A program made the translations under genes and the position numbers. From an uncultured Rhizobiaceae bacterium (GTDB lineage: Bacteria; Pseudomonadota; Alphaproteobacteria; Rhizobiales; Rhizobiaceae), in assembly GCA_958296345.1 (NCBI GenBank), contig CATQIJ010000013.1, positions 310,001 through 374,000 of the forward strand: a DNA stretch of 64,000 nt. The letters are read 5' to 3'. The notes beneath the pieces are model-generated. The model was given only the letters and a program-made list of their open reading frames with translations. It was not told the origin of the DNA and ran no database searches. Shown one piece after another: positions 6,825 to 44,893 of this stretch (the first letter of the stretch is position 1; each line of letters begins with the position of its first letter).

Positions 6825-7907
6825 TTAATTCTGATTATCAGATGCTGGAGCTGAAATTAAATTCTCATTTTGATCAAAAATGAACAGGCTCTTTTGATCT
6901 AAATAAGTGGGAACTACATCGCCAATATTGACCCTATGCACGCCATGCATCAGCGCTACCATATGCGCATCTTTGCTTTGTAAATGAATGAAGCTTTCCG
7001 AACCTGTAATCTCTGTTGTTGAAACTTTGAAGTTTAGTTCCATCGACTTACCTTTGGGCTTTTTAAGATGCACGTGGTGAGGCCTAACGCCAATTTTATA
7101 ATCTCCATCCGCAAGCGCTGACATGTTTTTAGGGACTTCAATGTGGCTGTCATGAAAGGCAAATTTACCGCCAGTATTCTTAACTGGGAGTATGTTCATT
7201 GGCGGATCAGAGAATGTTTGCGCTGTTAGTAAATCCGAAGGACGATTGTAAACATCAATAGTATTATCAAATTGCGTCACGTGTCCTTCGTTCAAAGTTG
7301 CAGTCTTACCACCTAGTAACAAGGCTTCTTGTGGCCAGTGGTTGCGTAAACAAATATCGCTCCAGTAGCAGCAAAATTTTAGGTAGTTCAATTCGTAATT
7401 CTTCGCGAAGTTTATAATCCAAATTTGCTAGAGGTTCGTCCAACAATACTAGCTCAGCATCTTTAACCAGTGCTCTTGCAAGCGCTGTTCGTTGCTGCTG
7501 ACCTCCAGATAAGTTCAACGGAGTGCGATCTAGATAAGGCGTCAATTTTAACAGTTCTGCGGCTTCATTAACGCGGCGGTCTATCGTTGATTTGTCTACG
7601 CCCGCAACACGCATCGGGGATGCTATATTTTCATAAACACTCATTGCTGGGTAATTAATAAATTGCTGATAAACCATAGCAACGTTACGCTTTTGAACGG
7701 GCAATCCAACAACGTTACTTCCATTCATGAGAATACTGCCAGAAGTTGGGCGATCTAACCCAGCCATTAAACGCATCAAAGATGTTTTGCCTGAAAGAGT
7801 AGAGCCAAGCAGAATATTTACTGACCCTTTTTCAAGCGTGATTGAAACATCATTGATGTGTAAATCATTACCTACCATTTTACTGACGTTTTTCAGTTCC
7901 AACATCA
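6825..7907 (-). pseudogene. glpS: Glycerol ABC transporter ATP-binding protein (GlpS-like), frameshifted
   Basis: ORFs 7306..7926 (Walker A GSTLSGKTSL, signature LSGGQQQR, LVLLDEPL) and 6825..7391 (C-terminal part) are one protein broken near 7334-7376. Confidence 0.8.
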
Positions 7908-7912
7908 AAATC

Positions 7913-9433
7913 CTATTCCGCTGCAAGCTTTTGCAGTTGTTTATTTTTATCGATAAATGTTTTCAGATCAATCGTTTGATCTTCTGTGAAACGTATTCCA
8001 AGCTTGCTTCTGCGCCACAAAATATCATCGGCTGTTTTGGCCCATTCACTACCAATCAGATACCGCACTTCTGCTTCATTCAAGCTGTGTCCAAAATCTT
8101 GTCCCAAGTCGTCCAGAGATTTTGCATCCTTAAGTATGTCAAAGATTTTCAATCCATAGGCACGGACCAACCGCTCACAATGGGTTGTTTCAAGAAATGG
8201 GTATTTCAAATGTACCTTGGAAAGTAACTCGTTATAACCAGAGACACCAAACTCCCCACCTGGCAAAATACTATCCTTTGTCCAAGAGCTTCCTTTAACG
8301 CCTATTTCATCTCCAACCATTTCGAGCATAGACTCTGCCAAGCGTCGATAAGTAGTAATTTTGCCACCAAATGTATTTATCACTTTAGGTTCGGAAGGCT
8401 CGCCATCCATCCGCAAGACATAATCACGCGTTGCTTCTTGAGCCTTCGAAGCGCCATCATCATAAAGTGGGCGCACACCAGAAAAGGTCCAAACTATATC
8501 ATCTTCAGTGATTGGTTCTTTGAAATAATCACTTGCTCCTGCACATAGATACTCAATCTCGGTAGGCGTGATTTCCACATCTGAGGGGTCACCTTCATAG
8601 TCTTGGTCTGTGGTGCCAACCAGTGTGAAATCTTGTTCATATGGAATTGCAAAGAAGATGCGTTCATCTGAATTTTGGAAGAAGTAAGCTTTTGGATGAT
8701 CAAATTTTTTGCGAATTACGATGTGACTACCTTGTACAAGGCGAACATTTTGAGCGTCATTTTTACCCATCGATGCTTGTAATATTTCATCAACCCAAGG
8801 ACCGCCTGCATTAACAATCAATTTGGAACGTACTTTATGTATGACACTCGTTTCAGCCGACTGAAGAATAATTTCCCAATGATCTTTGAGTTTATTCGCG
8901 GAAACAACTTTGGTTGATGTATGTATTTCGGCGCCTTTTGCCTTAGCATCCATTGCATTAAGAACGACGAGGCGGGCATCATTTACCCAGCAATCTGAGT
9001 ATTCAAATGCCTTAGTATATTTATCCTTGAGCGGCGTACCAGTTATATCTGAGTTTAAATTTACTACCTTGGTGCCAGGTAAAATTTTTCGCCCTCCCAA
9101 ATTATCATACAAAAACAATCCAAGACGTAGCAACCACGCAGGTCTTAACCCTTTGTGATGCGGGAGTACGAAACGCATTGGCCAGATAATATGTGGCGCC
9201 ATGTTTAATAAAACTTCACGCTCAATTAATGCCTCGCGCACTAGTCGAAATTCATAATGCTCTAGGTAACGTAACCCACCATGAACAAGCTTTGTTGACC
9301 AAGAAGAAGTGCCAGAACCCAGATCATTCATCTCCGCAAGACAAACGGAATAACCACGACCTACAGCATCGCGAGCAATGCCACATCCATTAATACCGCC
9401 GCCAATGACAAAGATGTCATATATCGTAGACAA
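7913..9433 (-). CDS. glpD: Glycerol-3-phosphate dehydrogenase
   Basis: 506 aa; FAD motif DIFVIGGGINGCGIARDAVGRG, GSGTSSWSTKLVHGGLRYLE. Confidence 0.95.
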   Translation of the reverse strand: MSTIYDIFVIGGGINGCGIARDAVGRGYSVCLAEMNDLGSGTSSWSTKLVHGGLRYLEHYEFRLVREALIEREVLLNMAPHIIWPMRFVLPHHKGLRPAWLLRLGLFLYDNLGGRKILPGTKVVNLNSDITGTPLKDKYTKAFEYSDCWVNDARLVVLNAMDAKAKGAEIHTSTKVVSANKLKDHWEIILQSAETSVIHKVRSKLIVNAGGPWVDEILQASMGKNDAQNVRLVQGSHIVIRKKFDHPKAYFFQNSDERIFFAIPYEQDFTLVGTTDQDYEGDPSDVEITPTEIEYLCAGASDYFKEPITEDDIVWTFSGVRPLYDDGASKAQEATRDYVLRMDGEPSEPKVINTFGGKITTYRRLAESMLEMVGDEIGVKGSSWTKDSILPGGEFGVSGYNELLSKVHLKYPFLETTHCERLVRAYGLKIFDILKDAKSLDDLGQDFGHSLNEAEVRYLIGSEWAKTADDILWRRSKLGIRFTEDQTIDLKTFIDKNKQLQKLAAE

Positions 9434-28101: not shown

Positions 28102-31005
28102 ATGAAAAAAGGCGACCACCTTTTTCTGGTTGATGGATCTGCTTATATTTTTCGCGCCTATCACGCCCTTCCACCACTGACACGAAAATCTGACGGTGTG
28201 CCTGTCGGCGCCGTATCCGGGTTTTGTAACATGCTCTGGAAACTTGTTCAGGAAGCTCGTAATACATATGTTGGTGTTGTTCCTACGCACTTTGCTGTCA
28301 TATTTGATTATTCATCAAAAACATTTCGCAACGATTTATACCCTGAATACAAAGCTAATCGTGATGCACCACCTGAAGACCTACGTCCACAATTTGCACT
28401 GATTAGAGAAGCAACCCGCGCTTTCAATCTACCTTGCATTGAAACAAAAGGTTTTGAAGCAGACGATATTATTGCATCTTATGTAAAAGAAGCTGAAGCG
28501 GTTGGCGGTGATGTTACAATTATCTCATCAGACAAAGATTTGATGCAATTGATAACCCCAAACACTATCATGTATGACACTATGAAAGACAAACGGGTCG
28601 GTATTGATGAAGTGCATGAGAAGTTTGGTGTTGGTCCTGAAAAAATGATTGACCTACAAGCACTTGCAGGCGACTCGGCAGATAATATTCCAGGCGTCCC
28701 TGGCATTGGCCCTAAGACTGCAGCCCAGTTACTCGATGAGTATGGTGATCTTGAAACGTTACTTGAACGCGCAAGCGAAATCAAGCAAAACAAACGCCGT
28801 AAAAATCTCATTGAGTTTGCAGATTTAGCTCGTATCTCTAAAAAGCTTGTAACACTCAAAGATGACGTACCGCTTGATTTACCCCTTGATGCTTTAGTGC
28901 TTGAAGAACCTAATGGCCCAAAGTTAATTTCGTTCCTTAAGGCGATGGAGTTTACATCTATCACTCGCAAAGTTGCGGAAGTTACGGATACGGACGCAAG
29001 CGCTGTAGAGGCTGATACAGTCACAGTTGGTGGGTACGAAAATGCTCGTGGCCCTGACCTTGATGCTGGAGATGGCACGAAAAATAATACAACTGAAGAC
29101 GGCAACACGCCTGATGCGTTAGTTCAAGCACGTGCAGCAGAAGGCGCAGCTACTAAAATCAATGCTGACACTTACGAATGCGTTCGCGATGAAGTAACAC
29201 TCGAAGCTTGGGTGCAACGCATTTATGAAGCTGGCGTCGTAGCAATTGATACCGAGACAACTTCACTTGACCCAATGGAAGCGGAGCTTGTTGGCATTTC
29301 GCTTGCAACTGAGCCGGGTATTGCCTGTTATATTCCACTTGCTCACAAGGAAGGCCAAGGCGACCTTCTTGGCGGCGGCATGGCACCAGACCAAATCAAT
29401 ACCGCTAGAGCTATTGAAATTCTAAAACCAGTTTTAGAAGATTTATCTGTTCTAAAAATCGGCCAAAACATGAAATATGATTGGTTGATGTTATCACAAG
29501 CTGGCATTGAAATGGCTGGGCTTGATGACACTATGCTGATGTCTTATGTGCTTGATGCTGGACGCGGCGGGCACGGAATGGACGCCCTTGCTAAACAACA
29601 TTTGGGGCACGACTGTATCCCCTACAAAGAGCTTACAGGCACGGGCAAATCAGCCATTACTTTTGACATGGTGGAAATTGATAAAGCCACCCGCTATGCC
29701 GCAGAAGATGCAGACGTTACACTTCGCTTATGGCGCGTCTTAAAACCACGTCTTGTAGCTGAAAAAATGACAACCGTATATGAGCGTCTCGAGCGCCCGT
29801 TAATTGAAACCGTAGCCAAAATGGAGCAGCGTGGCATCTGCGTTGACCGTCAAATTTTATCACGGCTTTCTGGCGAGCTAGCCCAAGCCGCCGCAGGGCT
29901 TGAATCTGAAATTCACGAACTTGCGGGTCGTAATTTTAACGCAGGCTCACCAAAACAATTGGGCGAAATTTTATTTGATGAAATGGGCCTACCTGGCGGC
30001 AAAAAAACCAAAACAGGTGCTTGGCAAACAGGTGTTCAAGTACTTGAGGAGTTAGCTGCTGAAGGTCACGAATTACCTAGAAAAATTATTGGCTGGCGTC
30101 AGCTAACCAAATTAAAATCTACCTATACAGATGCGCTACCTGGTTTCATCAATAAAGACACCAAGCGAGTGCACACCTCTTACTCCATGGCTTCTACATC
30201 AACCGGCCGCTTCTCGTCTTCTGATCCGAACCTTCAAAACATTCCAATACGCACTGAAGAAGGCCGCAAAATTAGAACGGCATTTATTGCGAATAAGGGT
30301 AATAAACTTGTTTCTGCTGATTACTCTCAAGTTGAGTTACGCGTGCTTGCACATATCGCAGATATTCCGCAACTCAAACAAGCTTTTGCAGATGGTTTAG
30401 ACATTCATGCCATGACCGCATCTGAAATGTTTAATACGCCTATTGAGGGTATGGATCCGATGATGCGCCGCCGCGCAAAAGCCATCAATTTTGGTATCAT
30501 TTACGGCATTTCAGCTTTTGGTCTTGCCAATCAATTAAGCATCGGTCGCTCTGAGGCGAGTGATTATATCAAAACCTATTTCGAACGGTTCCCGGGCATT
30601 AAAGGTTACATGGAAGACACCAAAAACTTTGTCCGTGAACATGGTTATGTAGAAACCATTTTTGGTCGCCAATCGAATTACCCTGGCATCAAAGACCCTA
30701 ACCCACAGATGCGTGCTTTCAACGAGCGCGCCGCCATCAATGCGCCTATTCAAGGGTCAGCTGCAGATATTATCCGCCGTGCTATGGTTCGTATGGATGG
30801 GGCATTATTAGATGCAAACTTATCGGCAAAAATGCTACTGCAAGTACATGATGAACTTATCTTTGAAGTTCCAGATGAGGAAGTTTATAAGACCATTACG
30901 CTTGTGAAAGATGTCATGGAAAATGCAGCAATGCCAACACTTCAGTTATCAGTTCCACTTCAAGTTGATGCGCAAGCCGCAGATAACTGGGATGAAGCAC
31001 ATTAG
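28102..31005 (+). CDS. polA: DNA polymerase I
   Basis: 967 aa with 5'-3' exo, 3'-5' exo and polymerase motifs (SADYSQVELRVLAHIA, LLQVHDELIFEVP). Confidence 0.97.
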   Translation: MKKGDHLFLVDGSAYIFRAYHALPPLTRKSDGVPVGAVSGFCNMLWKLVQEARNTYVGVVPTHFAVIFDYSSKTFRNDLYPEYKANRDAPPEDLRPQFALIREATRAFNLPCIETKGFEADDIIASYVKEAEAVGGDVTIISSDKDLMQLITPNTIMYDTMKDKRVGIDEVHEKFGVGPEKMIDLQALAGDSADNIPGVPGIGPKTAAQLLDEYGDLETLLERASEIKQNKRRKNLIEFADLARISKKLVTLKDDVPLDLPLDALVLEEPNGPKLISFLKAMEFTSITRKVAEVTDTDASAVEADTVTVGGYENARGPDLDAGDGTKNNTTEDGNTPDALVQARAAEGAATKINADTYECVRDEVTLEAWVQRIYEAGVVAIDTETTSLDPMEAELVGISLATEPGIACYIPLAHKEGQGDLLGGGMAPDQINTARAIEILKPVLEDLSVLKIGQNMKYDWLMLSQAGIEMAGLDDTMLMSYVLDAGRGGHGMDALAKQHLGHDCIPYKELTGTGKSAITFDMVEIDKATRYAAEDADVTLRLWRVLKPRLVAEKMTTVYERLERPLIETVAKMEQRGICVDRQILSRLSGELAQAAAGLESEIHELAGRNFNAGSPKQLGEILFDEMGLPGGKKTKTGAWQTGVQVLEELAAEGHELPRKIIGWRQLTKLKSTYTDALPGFINKDTKRVHTSYSMASTSTGRFSSSDPNLQNIPIRTEEGRKIRTAFIANKGNKLVSADYSQVELRVLAHIADIPQLKQAFADGLDIHAMTASEMFNTPIEGMDPMMRRRAKAINFGIIYGISAFGLANQLSIGRSEASDYIKTYFERFPGIKGYMEDTKNFVREHGYVETIFGRQSNYPGIKDPNPQMRAFNERAAINAPIQGSAADIIRRAMVRMDGALLDANLSAKMLLQVHDELIFEVPDEEVYKTITLVKDVMENAAMPTLQLSVPLQVDAQAADNWDEAH

Positions 31006-31020
31006 TTTTAGGAGGTAATT

Positions 31021-31401
31021 ATGATTTCCAAAAATGCAGCTCCTGGGTTTGCTTCACATCCGAATCATACTGTTGAAATCCAACCATATGATGGGGATAT
31101 CAAGATAGAGATTGATGGCGATGTCATCGCCAAGATACGCGGAGCACTGGTCTTGCAGGAAAGTAAATATGCTCCAGCTTATTATTTACCAAAATCAGCA
31201 ATGCCTGAATCAATGCTGGAAGCAAGCAATCACTCGACCTATTGCCCTTTTAAGGGAGATGCGAGCTATTATCATCTCATCCATAACGGCAAACGCCATG
31301 AAAATGCTGTTTGGAGTTATAAAAAACCCTTTGATGAAGCCATAGCTATAAAAGACTACATCGCAATTTATCCAAACGTTGCAAAAGTTGAACCTGCATA
31401 A
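31021..31401 (+). CDS. DUF427 domain protein
   Basis: [35 protein letters not shown]. Confidence 0.88.
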
Positions 31402-31450: not shown

Positions 31451-31527
31451 GCACCCATAGCTCAGCTGGATAGAGCGCTGCCCTCCGAAGGCAGAGGTCG
31501 CAGATTCGAATTCTGCTGGGTGCGCCA
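31451..31527 (+). tRNA. tRNA-Arg (CCG)
   Basis: gcacccatagctcagctggatagagcgctgccctccgaaggcagaggtcgcagattcgaattctgctgggtgcgcca; loop CTCCGAA; encoded CCA. Confidence 0.95.
31513..31527 (+). repeat. Direct repeat copy 1 (tRNA-Arg 3' end, att-like)
   Basis: ctgctgggtgcgcca, identical to 32935-32949. Confidence 0.85.
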
Positions 31528-32021
31528 TCTTCCAATTTCCCTTTTTATTTCAATATACTTCTGCTATAATTAGCTTCATGAACGAAGAATAAAGTTGTTG
31601 ATACTCTGTATTATTATCCACTACCAAGCAGTCCTTTTTGCATCTTCTGACACACTAATTAAACAGAAGAATTTTTAATTAAGAAATACTAATCGAATTG
31701 AAAACTGCACAGAGACTAATTCGCAAAATGTAATAGGTATCAATGTCTGGTGCTGGCCAGAAGCGACTTAATTTTGGGAAGGTTTCAAGAGCCACTTTGA
31801 GCACTAGTTGAATTTCTCACGCAAAGGCTGAGCACAGTTTAGGCCGGAAAACAGACATTTAAAAGACTTGTCATAGATCGCTTTGATACTATCTAGATTC
31901 TTCATTTCTTCTGCAACAATTGAAACAATAATACCATTGACGAGACATTCGATTGAAACAGGCAATACATAGTTTAAGAAGAGACAAAAACAACGGCCGC
32001 GTAATATCGCGGAGAAATTAA

Positions 32022-32189
32022 ATGGAAAAGAAAATGACTAGATATACGATATCAAAGACTATGCCTGAAAAAAGCAAATCTGATGGATCTTACATGGCAA
32101 TATCTGCAATGGCTGCAAGCATGAGACAAACTGAAACACAAACAAACGCTGGTAAAGTTTTATTATCGCTATTTTCAAAAGCCGCGTAA
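32022..32189 (+). CDS. Small ORF, 55 aa, unknown
   Basis: ggagaaattaaATG start; MEKKMTRYTISKTMPEKSKSDGSYMAISAMAASMRQTETQTNAGKVLLSLFSKAA; not in supplied track. Confidence 0.45.
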   Translation: MEKKMTRYTISKTMPEKSKSDGSYMAISAMAASMRQTETQTNAGKVLLSLFSKAA

Positions 32190-32193
32190 ATTT

Positions 32194-32859
32194 TTATATT
32201 TTGTTTGGGTCGTAAAGATAGCCAATACCGCGAACAGTTTTTATGATCACAGGCTTTTCTGGGTTCTTCTCTATTTTTCTTCGCAACCTAGAAATTCTAA
32301 TATCAATACTTCTATCAAATGGATCCCAAGAGCGATCATGAGCTTGTTCCAAAATTTGATCACGATTTAATACCCGCCCCTTGTTCTCTGCAAAGACCTT
32401 TAAAAGATTAAACTCCATTGCAGTAAGGGATATTTCCTCACCATCAATGTCAAGTAACTTCGCAGCTTCAAGATCTCGTTGAAAGTCACCAAACTTGACA
32501 GTGGCAGGTTTAGCGTCTTCTGGTTCATGACTGTTCTGAATATTACTATTACGCCGTAGTAACGCCTTAATACGAGCTTCGAGTTCACGTAAATCTACTG
32601 GTTTCCCAAGATAATCATCAGCACCCATTTCGAGTCCAATGATGCGATCAATTACATCTCCTGCTGCTGTGAGCATGATTACTGGTATTTGAATATCTGG
32701 CCTTAGGGATCTTAAAATCGAAAGACCATCTTCACCTGGCATATTGATATCAAGGATAATTAAATCTATCTGATTTATGGAAAGAAGATCGCGCAATTCT
32801 TTACCGCCAGATACGATTGAAACTTTGAAGCCGCGCTTATCAAGATACTCTTGTAACAT
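32194..32859 (-). pseudogene. OmpR-family response regulator, apparently without a normal start codon
   Basis: Receiver plus winged-helix DNA-binding domain; frame extends upstream as THTTHILVCDDELDVREMLQEYL with no ATG/GTG/TTG before the in-frame stop. Confidence 0.75.
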
Positions 32860-32934
32860 CTCGCGGACATCTAATTCATCATCACAAACTAAAATATGTG
32901 TGGTGTGGGTTAAAAAACTGCTGAGCGAATAATC

Positions 32935-32949
32935 CTGCTGGGTGCGCCA
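32935..32949 (+). repeat. Direct repeat copy 2 (tRNA-Arg 3' end remnant, att-like)
   Basis: ctgctgggtgcgcca, identical to 31513-31527. Confidence 0.85.
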
Positions 32950-32968: not shown

Positions 32969-35446
32969 CTATGAGCGCATCTTTTCACCTTCAGGGTCAT
33001 ACATCGCTTCGCCTTGCACTTCCGCCTTACAAAGCTCACCTAAAATTTCCACATCAAAGCTAGTGCCAGATGCAGAATACTCTGTGTCGACATAGGCCAT
33101 CGCCATTGATTTTTTGACATGATGTGCATATCCGCCTGAGGTGATGTAACCGATAGCTTTGCCATCTTTTAATACCGCTTCATCAAGTGTCACGTCGATA
33201 TCGGTATCAATGATTAGAGTAACTAGCTTTCTTGCAACGCCTTCTGTTTTGAATTTCAGAGTTGCGTCTTTACCGATAAAATCTTTTTTCCAATTTATGA
33301 AAACATCCATACCACTTTCGATGGCATTAAAATCAGGTCGAAATTCTAACCCCCATGCACCCCAACCTTTTTCAAGTCTGAGTGACATGAGTGTGCGGTT
33401 ACCATACCAGCGATATTCAAGATCAGCGCCCGCTTCTTCAATCGCCTCGCTTAACAAAAGAAGATACTGAGGCCTGCAATAGATTTCATATCCAAGCTCA
33501 CCAGAGAAGCTAATGCGATTTAATATTACGGGAACACCTCCCACAAATGTTTCGCATGTATCTCTAAATCTCATACCTTCGGCAGAGACATCCTTACGCG
33601 TGATTTTTTGTAGAAGCTCGCGTGATTTTGGGCCCGCTAAACCGACGCCATGCCAATCTCCTGTTTGGTTTTGATGGTTGACTCCGTCTGGCAAAGTCTT
33701 TGCCCAAAACCGCGAATGCGCATCTTGCATTGCGCCTGATCCAAACAGCATGAAGTGCTCATCGCCCAAACATGCGATTGTTAAATCTCCGTAGAGACGG
33801 CCTTTTTCAGTTAGCATTGGTGATAATGTGATGCGCCCAGGTTTTGGCACATAGCCTGCCATGGTTTTATCTAACCACTCACGTGCACCGGTTCCTTTAA
33901 TTTCATGTTTAGCAAAGTTAGCAAGTTCAATACCAGCAACGCCTGTTCGTACTGCTTTGCAGTCACGCGCAACATAATCATGTGAGCGATTACGCTCAAA
34001 CATTGGATCTTCCCAAGCATCATCTGGTGTATCTGCAAACCAAAGTACATGTTCAAGTCCAAACGCTTGTCCCATACGTGCGCCTTTTGCGATCAGACGA
34101 TCATAAAGTGCGGTCGTTTGTTGGCGACGGCCTTTTGGTAGAGTTTCATTTGGAAACGTCATGACAAAACGGCGTTCATAATTTTCAGTTGATTTTACCG
34201 TTCCCCAATCAGGCGATGCCCATTTACCAAAACGTGCCACATCCATCGCCCAAACATCGATTGATGGTTCTCCATCAATCATCCATTCAGCCATGGTTAG
34301 ACCAACACCCCCACCTTGACAGAAGCCTGCCATTACACCGACAGCACACCAATAATTATGCATACCTGGAACAGGGCCAATCATCGGGTTACCATCTGGG
34401 CCAAATGTGAAAGGACCATTGATAGACTGACGAATGCCTGCATTTGCCATTGCAGGGATACGCTCAAAACCTAACTCTAAACGTTCAGCAATGCGTTCTA
34501 AATCTGGCTGTAATAATTCATGCCCGAAATCCCAAGGCGTACCGTCTACTTTCCACGGCGTGCCTTTTGGCTCATATGTACCCAGCAACATGCCGTCGCG
34601 TTCCTGACGAAAATATAGATTTGCTTCATAATCAAACCCACATGGAAGCCTGTGATCTGCTGCCGCAACCTCATCGATCTTTTCAGTTAATAGATAGTGA
34701 TGCTCCATCGGTTGCACTGGCAGGCTCAGTCCAGCCATTTGACCTACTTCCCGCGCCCATAGACCGCCGCAGTTAACAATATGTTCTGCTATCACAGTGC
34801 CGCGTTCAGTCGTTACTTCCCACTGCCCATCAGGCCTTTGTTTTGTCGCTGTTACACCTGTATGTGTAAAATATTGCCCGCCATAATGACGCGCCGCCTT
34901 TGCAAAGGCATAAGTTGTGCCTGAGGGATCTAAATCACCATCTTGATCATCCCAAAGCGCTGCATGGTAATATTTTGGGTCAATCAGTGGATGACGTTCC
35001 GCTACTTCTTCAGGGCTAATAAACTCTTGGTCTAAACCCATATAACGTGCTTTTGACCGCTCTCGCTTTAGATAGTCATACCAAGTTTTATTTGACGCTA
35101 AATAAAACCCGCCCGTTAAGTTTAGACCTACGGATTGCCCTGAAAGCTCTTCAATCTCTTTGTAAAGATTAATCGTATAACTTTGCAATCTTGATATATT
35201 GGGGTCTGACGATATCGTATGAATTTGACCGGCAGCATGCCAACTTGACCCAGAAGTAAGCTCATCACGCTCCAGTAAGATCGTATCTTTCCAACCGAAT
35301 TTTGCCAGATGAAATAAAATGGAACAACCAACAACGCCGCCACCAATAACTACACATTGTGCATGACTTGGCAAAGATTTTTTACTTGTCCCTGTCTCGT
35401 CTTTTTGAATGTTCAATGTGGATTGCGCTAATTGGTCGATCGCCAT
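32969..35446 (-). CDS. GcvT-domain FAD-dependent oxidoreductase (dimethylglycine/sarcosine dehydrogenase-like)
   Basis: 825 aa; CVVIGGGVVGCSILFHLAK FAD motif, TSGSSWHAAGQIH, C-terminal GcvT-like domain. Confidence 0.92.
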   Translation of the reverse strand: MAIDQLAQSTLNIQKDETGTSKKSLPSHAQCVVIGGGVVGCSILFHLAKFGWKDTILLERDELTSGSSWHAAGQIHTISSDPNISRLQSYTINLYKEIEELSGQSVGLNLTGGFYLASNKTWYDYLKRERSKARYMGLDQEFISPEEVAERHPLIDPKYYHAALWDDQDGDLDPSGTTYAFAKAARHYGGQYFTHTGVTATKQRPDGQWEVTTERGTVIAEHIVNCGGLWAREVGQMAGLSLPVQPMEHHYLLTEKIDEVAAADHRLPCGFDYEANLYFRQERDGMLLGTYEPKGTPWKVDGTPWDFGHELLQPDLERIAERLELGFERIPAMANAGIRQSINGPFTFGPDGNPMIGPVPGMHNYWCAVGVMAGFCQGGGVGLTMAEWMIDGEPSIDVWAMDVARFGKWASPDWGTVKSTENYERRFVMTFPNETLPKGRRQQTTALYDRLIAKGARMGQAFGLEHVLWFADTPDDAWEDPMFERNRSHDYVARDCKAVRTGVAGIELANFAKHEIKGTGAREWLDKTMAGYVPKPGRITLSPMLTEKGRLYGDLTIACLGDEHFMLFGSGAMQDAHSRFWAKTLPDGVNHQNQTGDWHGVGLAGPKSRELLQKITRKDVSAEGMRFRDTCETFVGGVPVILNRISFSGELGYEIYCRPQYLLLLSEAIEEAGADLEYRWYGNRTLMSLRLEKGWGAWGLEFRPDFNAIESGMDVFINWKKDFIGKDATLKFKTEGVARKLVTLIIDTDIDVTLDEAVLKDGKAIGYITSGGYAHHVKKSMAMAYVDTEYSASGTSFDVEILGELCKAEVQGEAMYDPEGEKMRS

Positions 35447-35591
35447 GAGATTCCCTTAACAAGATACATTAATTACCGAGGGGCTGTAGAGCTTCAGCCT
35501 AAGTAATTATATGGTTTAATTAATACAAGTTATGAGGGTTTCGTTTTATTCACATTACCTGTCAGCGCCAAATTGGTTCGTGCCTGAATTA

Positions 35592-36272
35592 TTAAGCAGC
35601 TATATCTTTTTTCACAAAACGAAGATGGCCTGTTTTTACCCAGACTTTTGCCCCTCGATCACCAACTGTTGCTTTTAGACTACTACCGATCGGAATGCGC
35701 AACCAAGAATGCTTTTTAAGCGTATCATCACCTTCTTTAAAATCTCCATCAAGTACGAGCAATTCTATACCGCCATTATCTTGAAGTATGGTTTCTTGAC
35801 CAGCTGACCATTCCTCAAGTCGAACATCTTCTCTCTCATCTTTGAAAAGTGGTTTGATTGTTACACCGTCACGACCCTCAACTTTAACCGCTTCAATATT
35901 ATCAAATGAGACTTTGACGCCTATACGATCTTTTGGATCAAACTGCCAAAGTTTTACGAAAATTACGCAGCCCTCATCTGAACCTGGGGTATGACTTGAT
36001 TCTGGTGGGTTACGAATATAAGAGCCAGTTGGAAAATCTCCGTGCTCATCTTGAAAAACGCCATCAAGTACAATGAACTCTTCGCCGCCAGTATGGACAT
36101 GTGCTGAGAAATGGCTGTCAGGATCGTAACTTACTATTGATGTCGCATGGCCACTTTCTGCGCCCATACGATCCAACATACGGCGTTTTACGCCTTTCAT
36201 GCGTGTTTCAATCCAGTCAATTTCTGGCCCATGTAAAACAACACGCTGTGAAAAGTCTGCATTTACATCCAT
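35592..36272 (-). CDS. ChrR-like cupin protein
   Basis: HFSAHVHTGGEEFIVLDGVFQDEHGDFPTGSYIRNPPESSHTP; second cupin-like half. Confidence 0.85.
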   Translation of the reverse strand: MDVNADFSQRVVLHGPEIDWIETRMKGVKRRMLDRMGAESGHATSIVSYDPDSHFSAHVHTGGEEFIVLDGVFQDEHGDFPTGSYIRNPPESSHTPGSDEGCVIFVKLWQFDPKDRIGVKVSFDNIEAVKVEGRDGVTIKPLFKDEREDVRLEEWSAGQETILQDNGGIELLVLDGDFKEGDDTLKKHSWLRIPIGSSLKATVGDRGAKVWVKTGHLRFVKKDIAA

Positions 36273-36346
36273 AATCTTTCTCCATCTTAAAGCAATTAAT
36301 ATTTCTTCATATAATATAAGAGAGCCATGATAATAATTGAAATCAC

Positions 36347-37375
36347 TTAATCGAGCTTTTTGGTTGAAGCTCTTTTTATAAACTCAAGTTCGATTGACTC
36401 AACAAACTGTTTTGGTGGCATTCCAGTTTCACTCATCAACAATAATGTATCTGCGGCTTTTGTCCCAATGCGATTGGCTGGTAGTCGCACGGTTGTAAGC
36501 GCAGGTTCTAAATGTTCTGAACCGCCAAAATCGCCAATACCAACAATAGATACATCTTCTGGCACTTTGATACCTAAATTTTGACATGCATAAAGTACAC
36601 CATGCGCAATAATGTCATTACAGCAAATGAATGCTGTTGGTGGATTTTCTGATAGAACTGATTTTGCCATACGTTTAGCTGCGCCCACATCATAAAAACA
36701 CGAGAGCAAGCGATGTTTGGGAATATTTAGGTTATTTTCCAGAGTTACATCTAGGGCGCCTTTTAGACGATCTCTTGCGCGATCATTGGATTGAGTTTCT
36801 GGAAACACAAACGCTATATCTTTATGCCCTAACTTTACAATGTGTTGGGCAACTAAACGCCCTGCCTCATAATTATCTGCACCAACACAAGGGATTTTTG
36901 AATCTTCATGATAATTCCATACTGAAATTACAGGCACATCACGCTGAGCAAGCATGTTAAAAGGCACAGCTTCATGATCAAAGCCAATCAAGGCTATCCC
37001 ATCAATTCTTCGCTCTAATAATGAACGTACGATTGCTGTTTCCATAGCAAGTTCATATCCATGCGCTGCAATTAACATGGTTCTATCTTTTTCTTGAAGT
37101 CTGGCTGAAAACGCCTCAATTAATTCAGCAAAAATAGCGTTATCAATGGTGGGAACAATCAATCCAAAAGTGCCAGAAAATCCGTGATGTAATGTACCAG
37201 CCATACGATCACGAATGTACCCTAGATCTGCAGCTGCCTTTTCTACCCGATTGCGAGTTGGCCCCTTAACAATTTCTGGTGAGTTATAAAACCTCGAAAC
37301 TGTTGCAGGGGAGACACCTGCTAATTTGGCAACTTCAATTATGCCGGGCGCTCCTTTTCTTGACCTTACTCTCAT
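36347..37375 (-). CDS. LacI family transcriptional regulator
   Basis: IIEVAKLAGVSPATVSRFYNSPEIV HTH. Confidence 0.93.
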   Translation of the reverse strand: MRVRSRKGAPGIIEVAKLAGVSPATVSRFYNSPEIVKGPTRNRVEKAAADLGYIRDRMAGTLHHGFSGTFGLIVPTIDNAIFAELIEAFSARLQEKDRTMLIAAHGYELAMETAIVRSLLERRIDGIALIGFDHEAVPFNMLAQRDVPVISVWNYHEDSKIPCVGADNYEAGRLVAQHIVKLGHKDIAFVFPETQSNDRARDRLKGALDVTLENNLNIPKHRLLSCFYDVGAAKRMAKSVLSENPPTAFICCNDIIAHGVLYACQNLGIKVPEDVSIVGIGDFGGSEHLEPALTTVRLPANRIGTKAADTLLLMSETGMPPKQFVESIELEFIKRASTKKLD

Positions 37376-37430
37376 TAGAAATCTCCATCCTCCCTAGAAT
37401 ATCTTTCTACATAACTGCAAAAACTTAAAA

Positions 37431-37444
37431 TGAAAACGTTTGCA
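37431..37444. promoter_or_regulatory. Putative LacI-family operator
   Basis: TGAAAACGTTTGCA, near-palindrome around central CG, between divergent lacI-type gene and tctA. Confidence 0.6.
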
Positions 37445-37490
37445 TTTTTATTTTCACGAATTAACTTTAAGGATGGAGGAGTAAACGAAC

Positions 37491-39002
37491 ATGGAATTTT
37501 TAAGTTATTTTGGCGGTGTTTTTGAACCTACTGCTTTCTTGCTATTGCTCGGGGGAACAATCGGCGGGCTAATTTTGGGCGCGACGCCAGGCTTATCGCC
37601 AACTATGGCGGTAGCACTTTTAATTCCATTTACATTTCACTTATCACCGACACAGGGGCTTATTTTGCTGGGGGCGGCATATACATCTACTGTGGCTGGG
37701 GGGGCGGTAAGTGCTATTCTTCTTAAAATCCCAGGGGCGCCAGCCAATATAGCTACTGCTTTAGACGGCAATGCTATGGCAAAAAATGGTGAGGGAGCTC
37801 GGGCGCTCCACCTATCTTTCCTTTCATCAGGGATAGGTGGAGTAATCGGCGTACTACTTTTAATCTTCCTAACGCCTATACTGGCGCAATGGGCGCTTGC
37901 GTTTGGGCCATCACATCTATTCTGGATGGCTATTTTAGGTGTAACCGTAATCGGGTCACTTGATTCCAAATCATTTGTAAAAGGATTACTCTCTGGTTGT
38001 ATTGGCCTTTGGCTCTCCATGATTGGTTTTGATGATAATCTTGGTGCGCAACGATTTATATTCTCTGACGCGCTTACGGGCGGAATTAATATTATTGCCG
38101 CGCTCATTGGGCTGTTTGCTATTCCACAAGTGTTGGATATGTTTGCGAAAGGCCGCTCCAATTCCGTTATTGAAGCAATTGAAGTCCCTAAGCAAAAATT
38201 CATGGATTCACTTAAAGAAATTTCTCGTAGTGGACGTTCACTTTCTATTGGTACTGTTTTTGGTAGCATTATTGGTCTTATTCCGGGCGTTGGTGGACAA
38301 ATTGCAGGTCTTGTTGCTTATGACCAAGCAAAAAAGTTTTCTCCTGAAAAGGAAAAATTCGGCACTGGTCACCCAGAAGGCTTAATTGCAGCTGAATCTG
38401 CTAATAACGCAATGGTAGGCCCTTCGCTTGTACCATTGCTCACGCTATCAATTCCTGGCAGTCCAACTGCTGCAGTTTTATTGGGCGGCCTTATCATTCA
38501 CGGTATTTTTCCCGGCTCTGATCTTTTTGATAATCACCCAGAGGTTGCTTGGACATTCATCAACTCAATGTTGATCGGTCAAATTTTGATGGTGATATTT
38601 GGTATTTATACCGCAACTTGGGCGGCAAGAATTGCACGCGCACCTGTGCCAATTATGGCTGCTGCTGTTATGGTGCTGGCACTCTTTGGCGCTTATTCAG
38701 TTCAACAATCCATGGGTGATGTTTACGTGATGCTGTCACTAGGAGTTGGCATGTTCTTCCTTGAGAAATTTGGTTTTTCTGCAGCACCTCTTGTGCTTGG
38801 GCTTATTCTTGGACCAATTGCTGAATCAAACTTCACAACAGGCTCATTGATTGCAAATGCACAAAATGGACCAGTCGAATATTTCATGACGGGCACGCTT
38901 AACATCTTCCTGATCGTCCTTGTCCTAGCTTCTGTTTTTTATAGCTTCTGGTCAAATATGATGCATGGCAAAGCTGCTAAGTCAGAAGGAGCAACATCAT
39001 GA
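37491..39002 (+). CDS. tctA: Tripartite tricarboxylate transporter large permease (TctA family)
   Basis: GLILGATPGLSPTMAVALLIPFTFHL; 503 aa multi-TM. Confidence 0.92.
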   Translation: MEFLSYFGGVFEPTAFLLLLGGTIGGLILGATPGLSPTMAVALLIPFTFHLSPTQGLILLGAAYTSTVAGGAVSAILLKIPGAPANIATALDGNAMAKNGEGARALHLSFLSSGIGGVIGVLLLIFLTPILAQWALAFGPSHLFWMAILGVTVIGSLDSKSFVKGLLSGCIGLWLSMIGFDDNLGAQRFIFSDALTGGINIIAALIGLFAIPQVLDMFAKGRSNSVIEAIEVPKQKFMDSLKEISRSGRSLSIGTVFGSIIGLIPGVGGQIAGLVAYDQAKKFSPEKEKFGTGHPEGLIAAESANNAMVGPSLVPLLTLSIPGSPTAAVLLGGLIIHGIFPGSDLFDNHPEVAWTFINSMLIGQILMVIFGIYTATWAARIARAPVPIMAAAVMVLALFGAYSVQQSMGDVYVMLSLGVGMFFLEKFGFSAAPLVLGLILGPIAESNFTTGSLIANAQNGPVEYFMTGTLNIFLIVLVLASVFYSFWSNMMHGKAAKSEGATS

Positions 39003-39460
39003 CCGCTTTTCGCTTACAGCATACGATTTCATCTGGCATTGTTTTTCTTGTTGCTGCAATCATTACTTATATTAGCTTTACGCAAGAACCCGCAGATGCA
39101 TTTTTATTCCCACGGATGATTGCCATCTTCTTTATTAGTTTGGCGGCATGGAATTTTGTACGCGCTTTAACTGGCGTTGCCAAAGTTGGCGTTGGCCTTG
39201 ATATAGTTGAATTTAAGAATATTGTTCCCGGTTTAGCTGTGATGCTAATCTTCATGTTCTTTGCTGCAAAGGTGATTGGCTTCTTTCTAAGCTCAACAAT
39301 CGCCTTTATGATAATTTTTACGCTTTATGACCCTGCTCCACTAAATGATGGAAAAGCATGGATGAAGCGCCTTATCGTGACTGTCTGTTTTATGGCAGTG
39401 ATGTATTGCCTCTTCGCGTTATTGCTAAAAGTGCAGACGCCAAGCGGTATTTTGTTCTAG
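38999..39460 (+). CDS. tctB: Tripartite tricarboxylate transporter small permease (TctB family)
   Basis: 4-TM small protein overlapping tctA. Confidence 0.88.
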   Translation: MTAFRLQHTISSGIVFLVAAIITYISFTQEPADAFLFPRMIAIFFISLAAWNFVRALTGVAKVGVGLDIVEFKNIVPGLAVMLIFMFFAAKVIGFFLSSTIAFMIIFTLYDPAPLNDGKAWMKRLIVTVCFMAVMYCLFALLLKVQTPSGILF

Positions 39461-39498
39461 TCGACAGAACTTTTTGAAAACTCTGGGAGGAGATAAAT

Positions 39499-40482
39499 AT
39501 GAATAAATTATTTAAATCACTGGCAATCGGTGCAACAACTGTTGCTCTGGGTATGTCAATGTCAGCAGGTGCAACGTTTGCCGCTGATTTTCCTGATCGC
39601 CCAATTGGCGTAGCAGTATCCTATGGTGCCGGTGGCGCAACTGACTTTCAGGCTCGCATCGTAACCATGGTTGCCGGTAATGAAGATGTACTTGGTCAGC
39701 CAATTTACATTCTTAACAAACCTGGGGCTGGTGGACGTGTTGGTTGGAACTGGTTTGCAACGGAAGCTGAAGCAGATGGCTACACAATGTCTGCTTACAA
39801 CATCCCTCACTTCATCGCTCAGTCAATCAAAGGTGGCGTTAGCTACTCGGCAGACAGCTTTGAACCTATTGCAAACTGGGGCGCGGACCCTGCCGTTGTC
39901 GTTGTTGGCAAAGACAGCCAGTTTAGTACAATCAATGAGATGGTAGATTATGCAAAAGAGAACCCAGGCAAGGTAACTCTTTCTGGCGCTGGTCTTTTTG
40001 TGGGTCACCATATTGCTGCTCTTCAAATTGAAAAAGCAACAGGTGCAAAATTTGCTTACATCCCAACTAAAGGTGGCGGTGCTGCTGCAATGAAAGCTGT
40101 AATTGCTGGCGATGTACTTGGCGGTATCAATAACTTATCTGATGCGTTCCGTGCACAACAAGCTGGCAATGTGAAAATTCTTGGTGTTGCAGATGTTGAG
40201 CGTAATGCAGAATTCTTGCCAGATGTGCCTACACTTAAAGAAGCTGGCTATGACGTTGATAATGCTTCTGTGAACTTTCGTGGCCTGATGGTCAAGAAGG
40301 GCACACCACAAGCAGTTATCGATAAACTTGCAGCTAAAGTACCGGAAATGTTTGCACACAAACGTGTTGCAAAGCGTATGAAAGCTGGTGGTTCACCGAT
40401 GAAGATCATGAGTCGTGCAGAAGTACAAGCCATGTGGGCTAAGCGCCAAGAAACTCTTAAAGAGCTTCTAGCTGGTCTATAA
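39499..40482 (+). CDS. tctC: Tripartite tricarboxylate transporter substrate-binding protein (TctC family)
   Basis: FPDRPIGVAVSYGAGGATDFQARIV, signal peptide. Confidence 0.92.
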   Translation: MNKLFKSLAIGATTVALGMSMSAGATFAADFPDRPIGVAVSYGAGGATDFQARIVTMVAGNEDVLGQPIYILNKPGAGGRVGWNWFATEAEADGYTMSAYNIPHFIAQSIKGGVSYSADSFEPIANWGADPAVVVVGKDSQFSTINEMVDYAKENPGKVTLSGAGLFVGHHIAALQIEKATGAKFAYIPTKGGGAAAMKAVIAGDVLGGINNLSDAFRAQQAGNVKILGVADVERNAEFLPDVPTLKEAGYDVDNASVNFRGLMVKKGTPQAVIDKLAAKVPEMFAHKRVAKRMKAGGSPMKIMSRAEVQAMWAKRQETLKELLAGL

Positions 40483-40547
40483 AATAGCCATTAAGGCAAA
40501 TCGGGCAGGAAACCACCTGCCGATTATTTGAGTTAGAAAGTAATTAT

Positions 40548-41971
40548 ATGTCTGTTACCACAACCTCTGAAATTGATGAAATCCAACTTGTGAACGAGCT
40601 TGTTGAGCGCGCACGCGTTGCGCAAAAAGAGTTTGAAACAAATGGTAACCAAGAACGCTATGACACAGCAGCACTTGCCGCTGCATGGGCATTAATGGAT
40701 CCTGTCCGTAATGAAGAACTTGCCACTATGGCCGTTGAAATGACAGGCCTTGGCAATATCAAAGATAAGATTATAAAAAACCACCGTAAGACCCTTGGTG
40801 TCTTACGTGATATCAAACATTCAAAAACATATGGTGTTATTAGTGATGACCCTGCTACAGGCATCACCGAAATTGCTCGCCCAGTTGGCGTGGTTGGCGC
40901 TGTAGTTCCATCAACTAATCCAGTTGCAACACCTACAAATAATGCGATAAATGTACTCAAATGTGGCAATGCAGTTATTTTATCACCCTCTCCTAAGGGG
41001 GTTGCTGTTTGTGAAAAATTGCTTGGCTATATACATGAAGAGTTTGATAAAGTTGGGCTTAACCGCGATCTCGTACAGATGATTCCTGCCCCTGTTTCCA
41101 AAGTTAAAGCGCAACGATTAATGGAAGCAGTTGATATTCTAGTCGTTACAGGAAGCCAAAATAATGTGCACCGCGCTTATTCATCAGGCACGCCCGCAAT
41201 GGCGTTGGCTCAGGTAATGTAACTGTCATCATAGATGAAACAGCAGACCTTGCAGATGCGGCACGAAAAATAACCGCATCTAAAACCTTCGATAATGCTA
41301 CCTCGTGTTCATCAGAGAACGTACTTATCGTGGTGGATGAAATCCATGATACCTTCATGGCTGAATTACATAAAGCGGGTGGGCGACTATTAGATGATGC
41401 GAACACAACTAAAATCAAAGCATCGCTCTTTCAAGACGGAGGTTTGAACCGCCACATTATTGCGCGTGATATTGATCAAGTTATTGATGTTGCAGCTATT
41501 GAAGTTGAAGAAGCTGACAGCGCCAAGTTTCTACTTATTGAAGGGGCGGGTATTGGTTCTGAATACCCTGAATCTGGTGAAAAGCTTTCACTTGTTACGA
41601 CGCTTTATCATGCAAAAGATTTTGAAGATGCAAAGCACATTGCTTCGCAAGTTCTTGCCCATCAAGGCGCAGGTCATTCGGTTGGCATTCACACTAAAGA
41701 TGATAGTCGTGCGCATACACTGGGCGAAGAAATTCCAACTTGCCGGGTCATTGTTAATCAAGCGCATTGTTTTGCTACTGGTGGTTCATTTGATAACGGT
41801 ATGCCGTTCTCACTTTCTATGGGTTGCGGCACTTGGGGAGGTAATTCTATTGATGATAACTTCAACCACAAGCACCTGATGAACATCACTAAGATCGTTC
41901 GCACTATCCCAGTAAATGAACCAAAAGTCGAAGACATCTTTAGCGGGTATTGGGAGAAAGCTGGTAAATGA
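40548..41971 (+). pseudogene. Acylating aldehyde dehydrogenase, SauS-like (sulfoacetaldehyde dehydrogenase), single frameshift
   Basis: ORFs 40548..41222 and 41330..41971 join if one T is restored near 41200 (PAIGVGSGNVTVIIDE). Confidence 0.8.
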
Positions 41972-43506
41972 ACCTCCCGGTAGAAGACACTGAACAAATA
42001 AAATCACCCTCAATTTATGATGTCGTGAATGAACGCGCTGCTAAAGCCCCCGATAGCGCATTCTTGATTGACCCAGTTTCTGGCGTCGTTTTATCTTCTA
42101 GTGAAGCCCAAAAGCACATTGAAAATATTGCTGCTAATATTGAAAGCTACGGCATTCAAAAAGGCGATAGTGTAGCCTTTGCGTTTTCAAATAGCATTGA
42201 CGCAGCACTTACTATTTTAGGTATTATGTATGGGGGTTATCTGGCCGTAGCGATTAATCTTGTTGCTGGCAATTCAACCATTTCGTATGTGCTTGAACAC
42301 TCAGAAACAAAACTTGTGATTGCAGATAAAAGTGCCGAAGAGCAAGTTGCGCCGCTTGTTGCTTCTTGTGAAGCACCCGCCAAAATTATCGGCCTTTCTG
42401 ATATAAAGCCAAATGTTTCAACAACTACGAAACTTAATAGCTGCGGCACTAGTACTGATGGACTCTTGATGTACACCTCAGGCACAACAGGACGTCCTAA
42501 AGGGGTAATTCTAACCCACGCTAATCTTTTAGCTGGCGGCAAGAATACAGCGATAGCACATCAACTTTCGCAAGAGGATTGTGGCCTATGCGTTCTACCA
42601 CTTTACCATATCAATGCCGTTTGTGTTTCGCTTATGGGGTCGCTTGTTTCATATAGCAGTATAATTATCCCGCAGAAATTTTCAGTTTCAACATTCTGGG
42701 ATACAATTCGCGCACATCGCTGTAGCTGGTTTTCAGTTGTACCAACGCAGATTTCATATTTATTACATAATGCAGAAAATGAAGCTGACGATGCTAAGGG
42801 ATGTGATCAATTACGTTTTGGGCGTTCAGCTTCAGCACCGCTCTCGCCAGATATGCATGGTGCATTTGAAAAACGGTTTGGATTGCCAATCATCGAAACC
42901 ATGGGCTTAACGGAAACTGCAGCACAAATCTTATCTAATCCACTTCCTCCTGGCACAAGAAAAATTGGATCGCCTGGTGTCGCATTTGGCAACGAAGTTA
43001 AAATTGCTGATAAAGCGCAACGCGAAGTCATCCGCAATGTTGAAGGTGAAGTACTGGTACGCGGACCCAACGTCATGCGTTGTTATCTCAAGAACGAGGA
43101 AGCCACCAATGAAGCAATTACAGAAGATGGCTGGCTTCGAACTGGTGATTTAGGCAAGCAAGATGAAGAGGGTTATCTTTACATTACAGGCCGCCTCAAA
43201 GAACTCATTATTAAAGGTGGTGAAAACATTGCACCGCGAGAAGTTGATGAAGCACTTTACAGTCATCCAGATGTTATAGAAGCTGCTGCATTCCCGCTTG
43301 ATTGTCCAAACTATGGGCAATGCATTGAAGCAGGCGTCATGGTCAGTGAAGGTTCTAAACTTACCGAAGCGGATTTAATCGAAATTTGCATAGAGCAACT
43401 GGGGAAATTTAAAACACCAGACAAGATTCATTTTTTACCAGAACTCCCAAAAGGTCCATCAGGTAAAATACAGCGCATAAAGATTGCTGCATTAGTTGCT
43501 CAATAA
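41968..43506 (+). CDS. AMP-binding acyl-CoA synthetase (SauT-like candidate)
   Basis: LMYTSGTTGRPKGVILTHANL, GWLRTGDLGKQDEEGYLYITGRLKELIIKGGENIAP. Confidence 0.88.
   Translation: MNLPVEDTEQIKSPSIYDVVNERAAKAPDSAFLIDPVSGVVLSSSEAQKHIENIAANIESYGIQKGDSVAFAFSNSIDAALTILGIMYGGYLAVAINLVAGNSTISYVLEHSETKLVIADKSAEEQVAPLVASCEAPAKIIGLSDIKPNVSTTTKLNSCGTSTDGLLMYTSGTTGRPKGVILTHANLLAGGKNTAIAHQLSQEDCGLCVLPLYHINAVCVSLMGSLVSYSSIIIPQKFSVSTFWDTIRAHRCSWFSVVPTQISYLLHNAENEADDAKGCDQLRFGRSASAPLSPDMHGAFEKRFGLPIIETMGLTETAAQILSNPLPPGTRKIGSPGVAFGNEVKIADKAQREVIRNVEGEVLVRGPNVMRCYLKNEEATNEAITEDGWLRTGDLGKQDEEGYLYITGRLKELIIKGGENIAPREVDEALYSHPDVIEAAAFPLDCPNYGQCIEAGVMVSEGSKLTEADLIEICIEQLGKFKTPDKIHFLPELPKGPSGKIQRIKIAALVAQ

Positions 43507-43590: not shown

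Positions 43591-44893
<1,303 letters not shown>

Follow-up and report, generated by a model that had tools for sequence, protein, structure and literature searches.

Islands that target tRNA genes (tDNA), as collected in Islander, comprise a complete tRNA gene, a displaced 3' fragment of that gene lying downstream in the same orientation, and foreign DNA between the two (PMC4383910). Islands of the T-stem fragment class (1836) are about as common there as those of the anticodon class (2083). Several phages use sites of this kind. The P2-like Ralstonia prophage phiRSA1 integrates at tRNA-Arg(CCG) with a 45-base 3' portion of the gene, and phiRSY1, also P2-like, uses a 15-base tRNA 3' end at tRNA-Ser(GGA) (PMC5694545). 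In Paracoccus aminophilus, a member of the Rhodobacterales group, the prophage vB_PamS_Pami3 sits at tRNA-Arg(CCG) (PMC6536676). Partial tRNA gene copies left behind by mobile elements are remnants of integration, and such tRNA-fragment relics are a known outcome of island integration (PMC9897764).

The window, a 64,000-nucleotide stretch of DNA from an uncultured Rhizobiaceae bacterium, contains an islet of this general architecture beside tRNA-Arg(CCG) (Table 1). Like Islander islands, it has a complete tRNA, a same-orientation 3' fragment downstream and foreign DNA between them, and an empty site exists in a relative. Unlike them, it carries no integrase and measures 1,422 bp, so that it would fail the Islander filters, which include a 2-kb limit. 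It shares its target tRNA with phiRSA1 and vB_PamS_Pami3 and the 15-base length of its repeat with phiRSY1, but phiRSA1 and phiRSY1 are active phages of the 40-kb class and vB_PamS_Pami3 is a complete 35-kb prophage. The partial tRNA copy likewise recalls the described integration remnants, although most of these are longer fragments beside larger islands (PMC9897764). The features of the islet are those of a degenerate (collapsed) tDNA island, in which the att footprint is kept while mobility and cargo genes are broken or missing. Most probably (about 0.8), it is a relic left by an integrative element that targeted the tRNA, either a prophage or a genomic island; this element would have used a tyrosine integrase and later been collapsed by deletion. 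Genomic fossils of this degenerate tRNA-island type are nothing out of the ordinary.

Table 1. Features of the islet and its flanks (window coordinates)
Feature	Position	Strand	Remarks
polA, left flank	28102-31005	+	
DUF427 gene, left flank	31021-31401	+	
tRNA-Arg(CCG)	31451-31527	+	ARAGORN, Rfam tRNA; left att = final 15 bp (31513-31527)
Islet between the att copies	31528-32934	n/a	missing from the G011 empty site
Small GC-rich hairpin (CCGCG/CGCGG)	31997-32012		z -1.5 on minus, -2.3 on plus; weak
55-codon ORF	32022-32189	+	nothing related detected; possibly not a real gene
OmpR-type response regulator	32194-32910	-	Pfam Response_reg and Trans_reg_C, both domains complete; no start codon
Right att, displaced tRNA 3' fragment	32931-32949	+	exact over 15 bp (32935-32949); 19 bp once one mismatch is allowed
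DMGDH-like FAD oxidoreductase/GCV_T gene, right flank	32969-35446	-	intact, co-directional with the regulator

The two copies of the 15-mer CTGCTGGGTGCGCCA, both on the plus strand, are the only exact ones in the entire 2.94-Mb genome, and the window holds no others even when up to two mismatches are allowed. The two-copy genome count, a chance expectation of ~4e-7 per 1.5 kb from base composition and the recurrent integration at this tRNA together rule out a chance origin of the repeat. The single mismatch that accompanies its extension to 19 bp falls in the T-stem, where the resident tRNA reads AATTCTGC... and the right copy AATCCTGC.... Over all 19 bp, the right-copy allele matches perfectly the tRNA-Arg(CCG) that carries a prophage in IMG/VR contig L234. 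Since an element supplies the inner side of the right att, this allele is presumably what an attP with a tRNA 3' fragment would leave. For comparison, the 3' end of the window's other tRNA (Ser GGA) has no copy of 12 bp or more within the window. The right repeat was also considered as the coding 3' end of a lost kinase; the frame, GAPSRIIRSAVF followed by a stop, resembles a kinase C-terminus weakly and is ~30 nt too short, and this candidate lacks support.

Comparison of the tRNA junction in relatives, proposed with the original prediction, locates the empty site in the congener G011, the closest relative with synteny here. On a single contig syntenic with 22.7-45.4 kb of the window, the tRNA 3' end lies 13 bp from the stop of the DMGDH-like gene and the islet is absent; the DNA is 72-77% identical to the window, which places the comparison at congener level. 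A DNA search of 40 relatives matched the tRNA, a regulator orthologue at another locus in G010, and the DMGDH end in G011, but the left half of the islet in none (0/40); the sequence is otherwise foreign to the genus. Its GC content is ~36-41%, against ~42-48% in the flanks. Given its absence from the relatives searched and the empty site in G011, the islet is not ordinary core DNA, and the refuting condition set with the original prediction (relatives carrying the 1.4 kb as core DNA) leaves the element reading standing. The DMGDH orthologue adjoins the tRNA in G011, and a DMGDH/LacI/Tct-type block (window 32969-43506; L021; L111) adjoins tRNA-Arg in both G000 and G011. In G003, DMGDH and LacI are found at a different locus, which suggests that the block itself may have moved. 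An ancestral DMGDH-kinase-regulator neighbourhood was considered and discarded, as the kinase that follows DMGDH in G003 belongs to a different pair, a hybrid kinase with an NtrC-type regulator, at another locus. Elsewhere in the window, genes for an ABC ATPase (6825-7926, minus), an aldehyde dehydrogenase (40548-41971, plus) and a Cys/Met-metabolism enzyme (43829-44587, plus) look split or truncated; these appear to be sequencing indels or real pseudogenes.

The tRNA-Arg(CCG) gene is a repeated integration target in the family. A comparison covered 68 tRNA-Arg(CCG) loci, most with at most 20 kb of downstream sequence and some picked for already known partial copies; among the 57 loci chosen without prior knowledge of copies, three have a second 3' copy. 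Elements of 6-17 kb occupy the site in seven relatives (G023, G013, G036, G369, G131, G149 and G140), their far end marked by a tRNA 3' copy of ~44-54 bp, and six of the seven carry a G010-C3-type integrase directly inside this far copy. A reversed-sequence control of the comparison returned zero copies. The congener G010 encodes two tyrosine integrases beside ~50-bp tRNA-Arg(CCG) copies (L269 2432-3584; L270 10267-11751; L023 8708-8875). Beyond the tRNA copy, L269 has the same sequence as L023 has beyond its full tRNA, an indication that elements are stacked. In G001, the tRNA is followed directly by a gene for a phage-type replication initiator that is cut off at the contig edge (L028 1-387). 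The IMG/VR contigs L234 (11170-12747) and L207 hold a prophage that encodes a tyrosine integrase (PHROG integrase) and a DnaB-like helicase; the tRNA-Arg(CCG) in which it sits has the 16-bp 3' end of the window's tRNA.

The islet resembles the Rhodobacteraceae-type elements in six of these relatives (G023, G013, G036, G369, G149, G140) and those of G010 in using the same tRNA gene, on the same side, with a second 3' copy downstream. It differs from them in that they span 6-17 kb, encode an integrase, have 44-54-bp repeats and share a motif after the tRNA. This motif, ATnnTTTCAATGAnTTAG, immediately follows the CCA end at many loci (L325, L322, L312, L020, L308, L019 and others; the first 20 bp were compared), some of them proven elements, and could belong to a longer att core. 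It is absent at the left end of the islet. Without it, and without a 44-54-bp repeat, the islet was rejected as a member of the G010-C3-type integrase elements.

Between the repeats lie ~500 bp without genes, the 55-codon ORF and the response regulator, just as originally described. Neither the ORF nor the 500-bp left half has relatives among ~300-400 family genomes, viral contigs and plasmids. The islet holds no integrase, in agreement with the original prediction, nor any detectable remnant of one; a six-frame Pfam scan of the left half gave no match. Rfam yields no RNA family at a credible score within the islet, the tRNA alone being detected. The hairpin is weakly terminator-like on the minus strand, ~180 bp beyond the regulator stop.

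The regulator adds to the earlier description, as it is a gene without a usable start codon. Its closest relatives (74-77%) come from the same GTDB family; the closest with a named record are Rhodobacteraceae. In all six orthologues whose N-terminal junction was read, the regulator is the second gene of an operon, its start touching or overlapping the stop of a preceding histidine kinase gene; the window contains no such kinase. Homology to the orthologues starts at ~32898, and the stretch from the DMGDH flank to the first conserved codons lacks ATG, GTG and TTG in all frames, so that correcting a simple indel would not give back a start. The break falls within ~35 bp of the right repeat. The frame is nevertheless open over 235 codons and has diverged no more than intact orthologues, implying either that decay is recent or that it is not yet neutral, with selection persisting. 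A rare ATT at 32895 might still serve as a start. Probably the regulator has recently become a pseudogene; any expression would be weak and come from DMGDH read-through.

These observations fit a history of integration followed by loss. A tyrosine integrase would have recombined an attP bearing a tRNA 3' fragment into the tRNA gene, restoring the tRNA and pushing its old 3' end downstream. One or more later deletions, with an endpoint at or inside the right att, would then have taken the integrase and histidine kinase genes together with the 5' part of the regulator gene; the decapitated regulator hints at where deletion ended. A deletion reaching the att end would account together for the missing integrase, kinase and start codon, and the whole sequence of events would jointly explain the empty site, the tRNA fragment, the absent integrase and the decapitated gene. 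What is left is probably immobile. The relic reading is favoured by the two-copy limit of the repeat and the empty site in a syntenic contig, by intact elements with second 3' copies at the same tRNA in seven relatives, the G010 integrases and the L234 prophage, by a right-copy T-stem allele that is the prophage tRNA's and unlike the resident one, by a regulator broken beside the right att and without kinase or start, and by the foreignness of the islet to the genus. The att footprint put forward in the original prediction is supported by the empty site and by the integrase-bearing elements in the family, and its suggestion of a collapsed island gains from the absence of the islet in other relatives at DNA level and from the severed cargo gene. 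Several points weigh against a relic: no integrase remnant identifies a progenitor, the repeat is far shorter than those of intact elements at this tRNA, the left end lacks the motif common to many of those loci, the regulator frame is still open, and the empty-site DNA is of limited identity. The repeat may have been natively 15-19 bp (a T-stem att) or may be what the same deletion left of a 45-50-bp att. The lack of ATnnTTTCAATGAnTTAG at the left end disfavours the truncated form, whereas the finding that every intact element found at tRNA-Arg(CCG) has a copy of at least ~44 bp favours it.

The original prediction had also raised a mini-element mobilised in trans, here a non-autonomous regulator cassette of 1.4 kb whose short att sites still function and which borrows another element's integrase. 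Clean att boundaries on either side, the existence in G010 of integrases that use tRNA-Arg(CCG) and the precedent of 15-base att repeats (PMC5694545) would suit such a cassette; yet the genome holds a single islet and no recurrence was found elsewhere, the collections searched returned nothing related to the left half or the ORF, the cargo gene breaks off at the att, and no element-end motif is recognisable. Furthermore, the integrases that Pfam finds in this genome are located elsewhere, none beside a copy of this att. Mobilisation in trans is thus not supported and very unlikely, and its fuller form, in which a helper integrase moves a 1.4-kb element that has a T-stem att of natively 15-19 bp but no integrase, and the regulator is expressed through capture by the neighbouring DMGDH transcript, is highly improbable. 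Foreign DNA with a tRNA-Arg fragment could instead have entered by illegitimate or homologous recombination, with no integrase acting at the site; a random fragment of this kind might well lack an integrase and carry a broken regulator. However, the islet begins on the left precisely where the tRNA ends, and the fragment on the right stops at the same CCA, which is the standard integrase footprint, and the tRNA is a recurrent target, making this route very unlikely. Least probable of all is a chimeric join at a short repeat in a metagenome-type assembly of 23 contigs (83% complete, 4% contamination) with some frameshifted-looking genes in the window, given that the contig is 697 kb long, that the shared 15-19 bp are probably too short to mislead an assembler, and that the structure fits the expected biological footprint.

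The islet illustrates how much of a tRNA island can be lost with both ends still legible, and relics of its kind, shorter than 2 kb and without an integrase, are dropped by island finders. In the congener G004 (L025 ~9000-9120, minus), a 14-bp copy of the tRNA-Arg(CCG) 3' end terminates 21 bp downstream of the tRNA and is possibly a scar that has collapsed even further.
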